From IMG/VR virus record IMGVR_UViG_3300045999_005286, positions 1 through 34,458 of that record: a stretch of DNA of 34,458 nucleotides. One strand, given 5' to 3'. The notes under the pieces are model-generated. The model saw only the letters and a program-made list of their open reading frames with translations. It was not told where the DNA came from and made no database searches. This document shows positions 30,583 to 34,458 of this stretch, one piece after another (the first letter of the stretch is position 1; each line of letters starts with the position of its first letter). The position numbers and the translations under genes were made by a program. The DNA is from a virus.

Positions 30583-30802
30583 ATTAATCTTTGTTATCTG
30601 CTGTTCCGTTATTACATTTGTAGGAGTGAATTTTATTACTTGCAACTTTATGATTCCCGGAACAATCACATACGCAAATCTTCTAGGTGGACTAAAAAAC
30701 CCTCCTCCTTCAGATTGCAATGAATCTCAAAGAAGAGGATATGAAACTTTACTTACCATTCTGACTACAGTGATTGCTTTAAGGACTAAATTAGACGATT
30801 AA
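30461..30802 (+). CDS. Single-pass membrane protein, 113 aa
   Basis: 113 aa. Polar N-terminus rich in Ser, Glu, Gln (MTDFSMKTEDHNQENNSQKS), transmembrane helix LIFVICCSVITFVGVNFITC at about residues 43-62, then ILGGLKN-type loop (ANLLGGLKNPPPSDCNESQR) and a second amphipathic helix RRGYETLLTILTTVIALRTK. The start may also be at Met 6. Its stop overlaps the lysozyme stop on the other strand by 4 nt. Function unknown. Confidence 0.6.
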   Translation: MTDFSMKTEDHNQENNSQKSSDSSEDQQKEVGKKRGSILSKLIFVICCSVITFVGVNFITCNFMIPGTITYANLLGGLKNPPPSDCNESQRRGYETLLTILTTVIALRTKLDD

Positions 30803-31341
30803 GATCTCCAAAGTTTACCTTCTGCAATACGTCTTCGTTGAAGTCCTGCAGCAACTTTTGTACCTGGATTGTGATAAAGATAAAGAGCATCTGGAACTTT
30901 ATCCCATTCCTTGCTTTTAAGAACTCTGGTTATGGTATTAAAATTGGAAGACCCGTAAAAACCAGCACCAAGATTATAAGCAAAAGATAAAAGAGCTCCT
31001 TGTTGATTTTCATTCATTTCATTCCAGTGAGGTATTCTTTGAAGTGCAGGAAGAAATCTATTTTTTAAATCAAATTCAAGTAGAGTATCTGCGTATTTTT
31101 GAGTGATTACTCTTCCAATTTTAAAAGGAGTACCATCAAAGTCTCTAGTACTACCCCAACCTATCGTGATTGGTGGTCCTTTAGTTAGGGGATCTGGATA
31201 AGAATTTAAGTGACATCCTTCAAATTCTTTAATTAAATTAATGCCAACCAACGGCACTTCATTGGCATTATTTGGTTTGTTGGTATTGTTGGTATTGTTG
31301 GTTGGCGTTTCTACTTTTTTGCATTGAAGATACGACCCCAT
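30799..31341 (-). CDS. GH24 (T4-type) lysozyme, possibly frameshift-fused to C39 domain
   Basis: The frame opens at ATG 31341 (MGSYLQCKKVETPTNNTNNT). A low-complexity linker NTNNTNKPNNANEVP leads to the lysozyme domain: LIKEFEGCHLNSYPDPLTKG then PPITIGWGST, with the catalytic Glu (FEG), Asp (YPD, eight residues on) and Thr (ITIG), and QQGALLSFAYNLGAGFYGSS. It cuts the glycan of peptidoglycan at host lysis. No good Shine-Dalgarno precedes ATG 31341, and the start lies inside the upstream gene. The -1 frameshift heptamer A-AAA-AAG at 31320-31314 would give a 404-aa C39-lysozyme fusion instead. Confidence 0.85.
   Translation of the reverse strand: MGSYLQCKKVETPTNNTNNTNKPNNANEVPLVGINLIKEFEGCHLNSYPDPLTKGPPITIGWGSTRDFDGTPFKIGRVITQKYADTLLEFDLKNRFLPALQRIPHWNEMNENQQGALLSFAYNLGAGFYGSSNFNTITRVLKSKEWDKVPDALYLYHNPGTKVAAGLQRRRIAEGKLWRS
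31243..31320 (-). promoter_or_regulatory. Candidate -1 programmed frameshift signal (A_AAA_AAG plus stem-loop)
   Basis: In the C39 frame the last codons are GCA AAA AAG TAG, containing the slippery heptamer A AAA AAG (31320-31314). After 7 nt comes a perfect 10-bp stem GCCAACCAAC (31306-31297) with GTTGGTTGGC (31252-31243), 44-nt loop. A -1 slip reads on into GTA GAA ACG CCA, the lysozyme frame. Confidence 0.65.
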
Positions 31342-32012
31342 CCAGTCTTATCTTTCCCTCTTTCTAACCAACGACGAGTAAGATCTGATCTCTTATACAC
31401 AGCACCTCTGCCATTAGTTACTGGTCCAGTATATCCATCATTGAGAGAACCATAGGGATCATTCACAACATAATCTTCACCTCTCTTCCCAATTACGGTA
31501 AGCATGTGACCACCAGTAGGAGCAGATAGAGTGCCCCTGTGGAGAATACCAATAACAACAGGTCTCCCAGCAGACAACTCACGATCAAGGTCAGCAAACC
31601 CAAGATTATACCTAAACTCAGAATTAATTCCGTAATCTTTAAGAACACGGGTCTGAACTCCATGATCTGTCGTATCGCCAACTGCAAATACTTTTTGAAC
31701 GTAGGCGTCATCGCCCTTAGCTCCCTTAAGTGTACCCGGTTTGAAATATTCTAAAACCATAGCACAGGCAGATGAGTTACAGGTGCGGTTTGCATCTCTG
31801 TAGTTATCTGTTTGCGGAAAGAAAGGAACATCAAGAACTCCAGGAATAACTGGATCGATCTTAGTTCTAAAAATCCTTACCCAATTTGAAGTATCTTCAA
31901 GTAAATCTGGTTCTCTACTTGCCAAATCCACTTCCAGTTGCTCTACTGCTGCAACGTGTTTTGGATTTTTTGGGTCAAAGTGAAGAAAGAAATTGTGTAG
32001 ATCTACTTTCAT
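31311..32012 (-). CDS. C39-like cysteine peptidase domain protein
   Basis: 233 aa. From about residue 58 a C39-like domain: VLDVPFFPQTDNYRDANRTC, NSSACAMVLEYFKPG (nucleophile Cys in an N-terminal helix), GVQTRVLKDYGINSEFRYNL, GRPVVIGILHRGT, GGHMLTVIGKRGEDYVVNDP (catalytic His and Asp) and YG. Such domains act as peptidoglycan peptidases or bacteriocin-type proteases. With the lysozyme it forms a cell-wall-degrading pair. N-terminal 50 residues (MKVDLHNFFLHFDPKNPKHV) are a helical leader. A late promoter TAATAAATA lies 25 nt upstream. The stop is part of a candidate frameshift signal. Confidence 0.8.
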   Translation of the reverse strand: MKVDLHNFFLHFDPKNPKHVAAVEQLEVDLASREPDLLEDTSNWVRIFRTKIDPVIPGVLDVPFFPQTDNYRDANRTCNSSACAMVLEYFKPGTLKGAKGDDAYVQKVFAVGDTTDHGVQTRVLKDYGINSEFRYNLGFADLDRELSAGRPVVIGILHRGTLSAPTGGHMLTVIGKRGEDYVVNDPYGSLNDGYTGPVTNGRGAVYKRSDLTRRWLERGKDKTGWGRIFNAKK

Positions 32013-32072: not shown

Positions 32073-32600
32073 TCAAACTGTTACGGTCTCTCTAACTACA
32101 GATTTTACATAATCAAAAACAACTTCTGGAGTAGTCACCTCGTAAGGATCTGTGTCTGCGTTGTCGCGTTGACCTGCCTCAACAAAAAGTTTCTCGATAA
32201 TTCCATTATCAACAACAGCAGCATAGCGCCAAGAACGCTCACCGAAACCAAGATTAGACTTCATTACCAGTTGTCCCATCGAACGGGTGAAGTATGCATT
32301 GCCATCAGGAATGAGTTGCACTTTCTCAATACATTGATCTTTTGCCCAAGCATTCATCACAAACCCATCATTAACAGAGATGCAGTAAATAGAGTCGATG
32401 CCGAGACCAATAAAGTCGTCATATTTCTCTTCGAATCCAGGTAGCTGATAGGCACTGCAAGTAGGAGTGAAAGCACCAGGCAAACTAAAAATGACAACAC
32501 GCTTCCCATCGAAAAGTTCTTTGGATGTACGATTTACAAATTCACCATTTTCACGAAACACAAATTCTACTTGAGGAATTTGATATCCTTCTTTACGCAT
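32073..32600 (-). CDS. Peroxiredoxin (Prx5-type, AhpC/TSA)
   Basis: 175 aa from ATG 32600 (MRKEGYQIPQVEFVFRENGE), chosen because GGAGG lies 5 nt upstream; a longer frame from 32645 (MFNIFKKKEINMEVPM) has no RBS. Peroxidatic motif PGAFTPTCSAYQLPGFEEKY with Thr and Cys in TPTCS, then YCISVNDGFVMNAWAKDQCI and ERSWRYAAVVDNGIIEKLFV. Type-II peroxiredoxins reduce hydroperoxides with glutathione/glutaredoxin or thioredoxin; a glutaredoxin is encoded at 25601. Likely protects the infected cell during photosynthesis. Upstream is hli. Confidence 0.92.
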   Translation of the reverse strand: MRKEGYQIPQVEFVFRENGEFVNRTSKELFDGKRVVIFSLPGAFTPTCSAYQLPGFEEKYDDFIGLGIDSIYCISVNDGFVMNAWAKDQCIEKVQLIPDGNAYFTRSMGQLVMKSNLGFGERSWRYAAVVDNGIIEKLFVEAGQRDNADTDPYEVTTPEVVFDYVKSVVRETVTV

Positions 32601-32660
32601 AGGAACCTCCATATTAATCTCTTTCTTTTTAAAAATATTAAACATAACTATAAATTAAAT

Positions 32661-33715: not shown

Positions 33716-34458
33716 TTACTGACCGATTCGGTTTACGGCAAGTCGTGCTCGGTTAAGAATAGAACCACTCAAAGGAACATATCCAAGGTCATCGGCAAGT
33801 GATTGTGCTTTAGAACTCAGAGCATAGTTTAATGCCTTACGAATGGCATCAGCATTAGCGCCGTTGCCAGTCTTATATGCAAGAACCCAAGTCAGAGTTG
33901 AAATTGGATATGCAGTTGCACCAGCAGGATTTGGATTTTCACCTGCAAGGTTTGCATCCAGTTTGATACCATTCAATGCGGCAGAACCAGAAGCAGCAGT
34001 AGGAAGAACAAACTTACCTGCCTTATTTTGAATTGCTGCTGCTTGGAGTTTGTTTGCTTTTATAAATCCAGTGTTTACATAACCAATAGAACCTGGGGTT
34101 TGGCGAATGCTACCAGACACACCCTCATTACCTTTAGCGCCAATGCCAGTAGGCCACTTTACAGACTTACCTACACCTGCTTTCCATCCACCAAAAGCAT
34201 CTAGAGAATTAGTGAACGCATAAGTGGTTCCAGAACCATCTGCACGATATACGGTACGAATAGGACCAGCAGCACATCCAAGTGCTTTCCAATCCTTAAT
34301 TCGACCAGCAAAAATATCTACAGTTTGCTTCTGGGTTAGTTTCAGAGTGCATCCTGGTTTGTTATAAGCAACAGCAATCGTTCCACCCACCATAGGAATT
34401 TGAACGACACCACGCTTTACTTTGGCAGCGTCTGCTGAACTGATTGGTTCGTCGCTTG
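33716..34458 (-). CDS. pstS: Phosphate-binding protein PstS (5' end outside window)
   Basis: The frame is open to the right edge, so only the C-terminal 247 residues are seen; the N-terminus with its signal peptide is missing. Periplasmic binding protein features: KRGVVQIPMVGGTIAVAYNK, LTQKQTVDIFAGRIKDWKAL, YRADGSGTTYAFTNSLDAFG (the SGT phosphate-binding loop), GAKGNEGVSGSIRQTPGSIG (GNEGV loop), and YPISTLTWVLAY. Phage PstS scavenges phosphate with the host ABC transporter under P limitation. The terminator that follows carries the promoter for hli. The stop is TGA-type at 33716-33718 region. Confidence 0.95.
   Translation of the reverse strand, partial: SDEPISSADAAKVKRGVVQIPMVGGTIAVAYNKPGCTLKLTQKQTVDIFAGRIKDWKALGCAAGPIRTVYRADGSGTTYAFTNSLDAFGGWKAGVGKSVKWPTGIGAKGNEGVSGSIRQTPGSIGYVNTGFIKANKLQAAAIQNKAGKFVLPTAASGSAALNGIKLDANLAGENPNPAGATAYPISTLTWVLAYKTGNGANADAIRKALNYALSSKAQSLADDLGYVPLSGSILNRARLAVNRIGQ

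Follow-up and report, generated by a model that had tools for sequence, protein, structure and literature searches.

A probable -1 programmed frameshift site joining a C39-like peptidase to a GH24 lysozyme in the lysis cassette of T4-like cyanophages

The peptidase-lysozyme junction in a viral fragment

The DNA analysed here (hereafter the window) is a 34,458-base viral fragment from IMG/VR; its minus strand carries overlapping genes for a C39-like peptidase and a lysozyme (Table 1). The peptidase gene ends ...ATC TTC AAT GCA AAA AAG TAG, and the lysozyme ORF (30799-31341, minus strand) lies in the -1 frame relative to it, with no stop across the heptamer A AAA AAG. This is an X XXY YYZ heptamer in 0-frame phase within the overlap of the two frames, as expected of -1 frameshifting, and the 7-nt spacer TAGAAAC places the downstream stem within the range of about 5-9 nt past the heptamer that is characteristic of stimulatory RNA structures. 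The initial annotation had proposed a -1 frameshift on the basis of this end, the phased heptamer and the open lysozyme frame, all of which are exact to the base; the perfect 10-bp stem at 7 nt with its 44-nt loop was likewise recovered from the sequence, and the length suggested for the fusion, 404 aa, agrees with our count (233 + 171).

Table 1. Coordinates of the junction features in the window
Feature	Position	Strand	Remarks
C39-like peptidase gene, 0 frame	31311..32012	-	233 aa; PF13529 E=9.8e-10; phrog_3617/phrog_10051
Slippery heptamer A AAA AAG	31314..31320	-	phased with the C39 frame
C39 stop TAG	31311..31313	-	directly 3' of the heptamer
Stem 5' arm GCCAACCAAC	31297..31306	-	7 nt past the heptamer
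Loop, 44 nt	31253..31296	-	codes for Asn/Thr-rich linker
Stem 3' arm GTTGGTTGGC	31243..31252	-	perfect 10-bp pairing with GCCAACCAAC
-1 frame coding region reached by the predicted slip	30799..31314	-	KK-VETPTNN... linker and GH24 lysozyme; PF00959 E=1.5e-22
Catalytic-type Glu, FEG motif	codon 31221-31219	-	lysozyme frame
ATG in lysozyme frame within C39	31339..31341	-	possible independent start; not conserved in relatives

Both window proteins match PHROG 3617, one its N-terminal and the other its C-terminal part, and the member of this family from Synechococcus phage ACG-2014f is a 405-aa fusion. The first protein is assigned to the C39-like peptidases (Peptidase_C39_2) by its match to the PF13529 profile and its Cys/His/Asp triad, whose residues C78, H169 and D185 are invariant in 180 of 180 distinct relatives. 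A search of PDB sequences with this domain recovered no solved homologue and its peptidase activity is predicted; a pattern search of cellular genomes for relatives of the C39 protein found none. The second protein, which the initial annotation had called a T4-type lysozyme, is indeed a lysozyme by profile, but it belongs to GH24, with the PF00959 match and an FEG motif bearing the catalytic Glu, and is nearer to P22 and Acinetobacter endolysins than to T4 lysozyme. This Glu and the following Asp (E256 and D265) are invariant among the fusions, and the lysozyme domain of a natural fusion gave a fold match to the AbLys1/P22 GH24 endolysins. An AlphaFold model of a natural in-frame fusion (locus L150) displays two domains connected by a low-confidence linker (mean pLDDT 66.8); since the active-site half of the C39 domain is poorly modelled, we make no structural claim for it.

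The cassette is adjoined by a peroxiredoxin gene (window 32073-32645), which is also found near the cassette in DSL-LC02/LC03, and a gene for a PstS-like phosphate-binding protein (window 33716-34456) runs off the end of the window; both are auxiliary metabolic genes.

In this AT-rich window AAAAAAG occurs 25 times against 23.1 expected; as this is chance frequency, we did not accept a single-sequence case based on the heptamer alone. The stem is moderately unusual against null models: a 77-nt segment folds at -15.6 kcal/mol (z = -2.2 relative to dinucleotide shuffles), and its helix score of 26 compares with a mean of 12.6 in a synonymous-codon null, with none of 200 shuffles scoring as high. 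An Rfam search recovered no known element, the sub-threshold match to Ocean-VII (31345-31401, E=0.097) scoring 14.3 against a gathering threshold of 53.5. The decisive evidence is the comparison across relatives.

Conservation of the heptamer and the stem

Six scans of IMG/VR together with searches of INPHARED phages yielded about 430 loci. As this list contains repeated contigs, each count below is taken over distinct junction sequences; these share ancestry and cannot be treated as independent observations. In 141 distinct junctions the lysozyme overlaps the C39 gene in the -1 frame; 19 others are scored as in-frame fusions and 22 as separate genes. The controls without the signal number 16 in-frame fusions, 24 TGA-overlap starts, 25 pairs of separate genes and about 21 C39 genes without a lysozyme. 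Of the 141 overlapping junctions, 113 contain a phased XXXYYYZ heptamer within the overlap, namely A AAA AAG in 110, A AAA AAA in 1 and T TTT TTT in 2; it adjoins the stop in 95 of these 113 and stands one codon upstream in 16. NNA AAA AAG is retained at the C39 end in 111 of the 141, and clustering these A-type junctions at 85% DNA identity gives 43 groups.

The heptamer is conserved beyond what the protein requires. The codon ahead of AAA AAG varies among the 111 junctions (GCA 55, GTA 50, ACA 3, ATA 2, GAA 1), and with it the encoded amino acid, yet its wobble A, which supplies the first base of the heptamer, is invariant. Upstream in the same genes, by contrast, only 36% of the codons for Ala and 26% of those for Val end in A.

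Stems were scored as the best uninterrupted helix starting 2-14 nt past the heptamer. They usually comprise 8-16 bp, enclose loops of 3 to 66 nt, begin 2-8 nt downstream of the heptamer in most junctions and are built from 83 distinct arm pairs; a few junctions (L151, L094, L003) have no strong stem. The helix score in relatives averages 23.3 against 13.6 under synonymous shuffling, with 77% of 56 representatives at p<0.05. Three families dominate, CAACACCAC/GTGGTGTTG, GCCAAC(C/T)AAC/GTT(G/A)GTTGGC and TCTA(C/T)TCC/GGA(G/A)TAGA, and their registers with respect to the lysozyme codons differ. In one family of 22 sequences whose spacing is constant, pairing holds in 98.4% of cells, and four pairs have changed on both sides, against a shuffle mean of 0.8 (0 of 500 shuffles reach four); sliding the partner by 1-3 columns gave no double-changed pair. 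When arms were cross-paired over all stems the native arm came out best in just 8 of 50, since the same stem families occur in several relatives; with the test redone by family, a 5' arm from one family forms poor pairs with the 3' arms of another.

All of the stem is located 3' of the heptamer, and it seems to be transferred together with the lysozyme module, because different stem families are found in phages whose C39 DNA is 92-93% identical. As stem arms and lysozyme can move as one module, the agreement between stem families partly reflects shared descent of the cassette. The alignment proposed in the initial annotation as a check thus had a favourable outcome, with heptamer, spacing, stem and -1 relation recurring in relatives and the stem covarying in most junctions; its frameshift reading is thereby supported by comparison with several hundred related loci, with the phased heptamer kept in 111 distinct junctions.

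Other arrangements, start codons and competing explanations

Relatives with other arrangements provide natural controls. The initial annotation had counted homologues out of the -1 relation as contrary evidence, and such homologues exist, those with separate genes among them, but the heptamer is missing from them too and, where scored, so mostly is the stem. The heptamer is likewise missing from the about 21 distinct C39 genes without a downstream lysozyme. Relatives using an overlapping ATGA start are as a rule without it, and ATGA/TGA-overlap starts that lack the heptamer have no stem either, their mean score being 10.8 against 23.8; heptamer and (A/G)TGA start occur together in 11 junctions. 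In the 16 distinct in-frame fusions of the ACG-2014f type the wobble position is free (GCG/GCC/GCT/GCA AAA/AAG GTN), there is no heptamer at the junction and helix scores are at the null level. These fusions read ...AKVE... where ...KKVE... would be expected from a slip; the junctions of the in-frame fusion and of the predicted slip product are homologous at the protein level. On a FastTree C39 tree the arrangements interchange repeatedly, with 24 changes among 180 sequences.

In phage S-CAM7, which is placed inside the clade of in-frame fusions, the junction reads GTT TTT TTT followed after six nt by the 7-bp stem TAGAACC/GGTTCTA, and the lysozyme frame has no ATG, GTG or TTG before the catalytic Glu. 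Apparently this cassette represents a separate origin of the same putative frameshift device. T TTT TTT with a 7-bp stem at 6 nt is found in the S-CAM7-type loci L004, L005, L012, L173 and L174.

Several further variants were noted. Five contigs have one extra A at the site (NTA AAA AAA GTA GAA; loci L150:2498-3709, L172:2498-3685, also L377 and L389-L392). The additional base puts C39 and lysozyme into a single frame and leaves the stem intact; such contigs represent either genuine fusions of recent date or mistakes made in assembling the A run. S-CREM1 (L009:1506-2687) has a single in-frame ORF with the reverse domain order, lysozyme first and C39 second. Relatives with ATGA starts (L013, L021, L026, L032 and others) have about 50 extra residues preceding the core of the lysozyme, which may form a small domain of their own (MTIKFIDAVKNHKDLPHQND...). 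In S-CRM01 (L010:2321-3630) the lysozyme match is in two pieces across the overlapping annotated genes g113/g112, possibly another frame disruption or recoding inside the lysozyme.

The main competing explanation at the level of translation is a separate lysozyme made by internal initiation at the ATG at 31341 or by GTG/TTG reinitiation past the C39 stop. A free lysozyme is possible from the window sequence alone, since its lysozyme frame holds an ATG, a GTG (31257-31255) and a TTG (31251-31249) before the catalytic Glu, and in a minority of relatives an ATGA or GTGA overlap is plainly the start; the stop context in the window itself, GTAGA, has no ATG, GTG or TTG overlapping the stop of the type used in ATGA termination-reinitiation. 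By carrying an ATG inside the overlap, however, the window departs from most relatives. Its lysozyme frame is open for 34 nt upstream of the C39 stop, whereas in relatives the -1 frame is typically closed by a TGA two codons ahead of the heptamer, and only 2 of the 111 heptamer junctions have an ATG at the window's offset. From the upstream -1 stop to the catalytic Glu, 99 of the 111 contain no ATG, 77 no ATG or GTG and 52, S-PM2 included, no ATG, GTG or TTG, so that in these 52 an ordinary start for the complete lysozyme is lacking. Independent initiation also leaves the invariant wobble A unexplained, and the loss of the stem where the lysozyme has its own TGA-overlap start without the heptamer speaks against it as well. 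We accordingly rejected an independent start as the general mechanism and regard it as a very improbable explanation of the window.

Transcriptional slippage, in which the A run would yield mRNAs with an extra A (or the equivalent) that fuse the frames, draws some support from the A6-A8 homopolymers, the T8 of S-CAM7 and the genomic variants with one extra A on five contigs. It usually needs runs of about 8-9; the run in the window is A6 followed by G, and in relatives it is usually just A6, ended by G in 110 of 111. Moreover, the length and phase of the site fit X XXY YYZ, with a covarying stem at ribosomal spacing, and we give this explanation a low probability. That the lysozyme frame is merely broken in the window contig, by a sequencing indel or by decay of a fusion gene, might be suggested by the existence of in-frame fusion relatives (ACG-2014f). 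This reading is refuted, as the same -1 relation is present in 141 distinct junctions, including those of the isolates S-PM2, S-SRM01 and S-CAM7, which come from separate sequencing projects.

The annotated 'putative lysin' of S-PM2 is a 73-aa fragment that starts downstream of the catalytic Glu. Internal starts are annotated for the 'lysin' of both S-PM2 (L001:2960-3178, L002:2960-3178) and S-CAM7 (L004:2999-3217, L005:2945-3217), far downstream of the N-terminus of the lysozyme domain and of the catalytic Glu. These are probable mis-annotations caused by an unrecognised frameshift.

Proposed mechanism and comparison with known systems

Comparative sequence analysis thus favours, with a probability of about 0.93, a -1 programmed ribosomal frameshift site that is conserved in the lysis cassette of T4-like cyanophages and would give rise to a C39 peptidase and a C39-lysozyme fusion endolysin. 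Under this proposal most ribosomes translating the peptidase would terminate at the TAG after GCA AAA AAG. The stem-loop 5-8 nt downstream would stall a fraction of them; on A AAA AAG both Lys tRNAs would then shift back by one base and pair anew, and reading would continue in the -1 frame. The slip would produce a 404-aa protein composed of the peptidase, an Asn/Thr-rich linker and the GH24 lysozyme, and the phage would make the peptidase alone plus a bifunctional peptidase-lysozyme endolysin. These are the likeliest products as the triad is kept in the peptidase and the catalytic Glu/Asp in the lysozyme. The proposal builds on what was computed here, namely the anatomy of the junction, its conservation, the covarying stem, the lack of start codons in many relatives and the matching natural in-frame fusions. 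In many relatives the slip appears to be the only way to an intact lysozyme. From these observations we infer that the slippage is ribosomal, and likewise its efficiency and a selection for an excess of peptidase over fusion; a fixed ratio of the two forms, as put forward in the initial annotation, would belong to the same inferred picture.

By analogy with CTP1L, CD27L, Lys170 and LysIME-EF1, the free C39 protein may be a partner subunit of the fusion; alternatively, lysozyme may be limited because a low level of it delays lysis. A broader and distinctly tentative idea is that the slip rate acts as a family-wide lysis rheostat, setting the ratio of free peptidase subunit to a co-assembling peptidase-lysozyme fusion in a mixed endolysin. 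The signal would then be a swappable module, with the heptamer upstream and the stem accompanying the lysozyme cassette, that was repeatedly gained, lost, replaced by in-frame fusion and re-invented (as T TTT TTT in S-CAM7).

The predicted frameshift is unannotated in public phage genomes of a large virus group infecting marine and freshwater cyanobacteria. It would place a recoding signal of deep conservation within a lysis gene that abundant cyanophages carry, the model phage S-PM2 included, and would mean that phage gene callers miss or truncate a whole class of endolysins. The natural experiments among the relatives (frameshift, in-frame fusion, reinitiation, separate genes and no lysozyme) raise the question why a frameshift is kept over a fusion, and they offer a comparative panel for studying how stem-loops stimulate -1 frameshifting in settings other than E. 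coli.

In the open-access literature we found no report of a cyanophage frameshift at this site or of a peptidase and lysozyme joined by frameshifting. The mechanism is known from dnaX and from IS3-family elements, and its use here appears unreported. As the initial annotation had suggested, the site resembles that of E. coli dnaX, with the same heptamer and phase, a stop close behind, a stem-loop 5-8 nt downstream and a short and a long form. The likeness does not extend to the upstream Shine-Dalgarno-like sequence of dnaX, which is absent in the window and not enriched in the cyanophage set (17 of 111 heptamer junctions against 23 expected). Furthermore, the dnaX frameshift product is the shorter form, whereas the cyanophage -1 frame encodes a complete second enzyme domain. 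The candidate signal is also reminiscent of IS3-family OrfA/OrfB, where an A AAA AAG-type site joins two domains; in the transframe transposases of that family the second domain is otherwise not or poorly made and there is a stimulatory downstream structure. The genes here are lysis enzymes rather than a transposase, and no mobile element was seen at the site. The A AAA AAG plus stem signal has been studied systematically in E. coli (PMC4066793).

Among endolysins, the natural ACG-2014f fusion of phrog_3617 has the same two domains in the same order with the homologous AKVE junction, but is fused in frame with neither heptamer nor stem at the junction. The paper on PRFect lists a lysin among frameshift genes, citing a Lactococcus lysin of 1994 (PMC10885494); the parts of that lysin reportedly overlap in two frames or genes, and the phage group differs. 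For CTP1L/CD27L, Lys170 and LysIME-EF1, one endolysin locus gives rise to a full-length and a single-domain form, and the extra form assembles with the full-length protein and is needed for activity (PMC4777826, PMC7098653). Those systems employ an internal in-frame start to supply an extra C-terminal binding domain, whereas the cyanophage cassette is predicted to employ a frameshift to supply an excess of the N-terminal enzymatic domain. Judged against these precedents, what would be new in the cyanophages is the gene family and its architecture, for which the comparative evidence is unusually rich.
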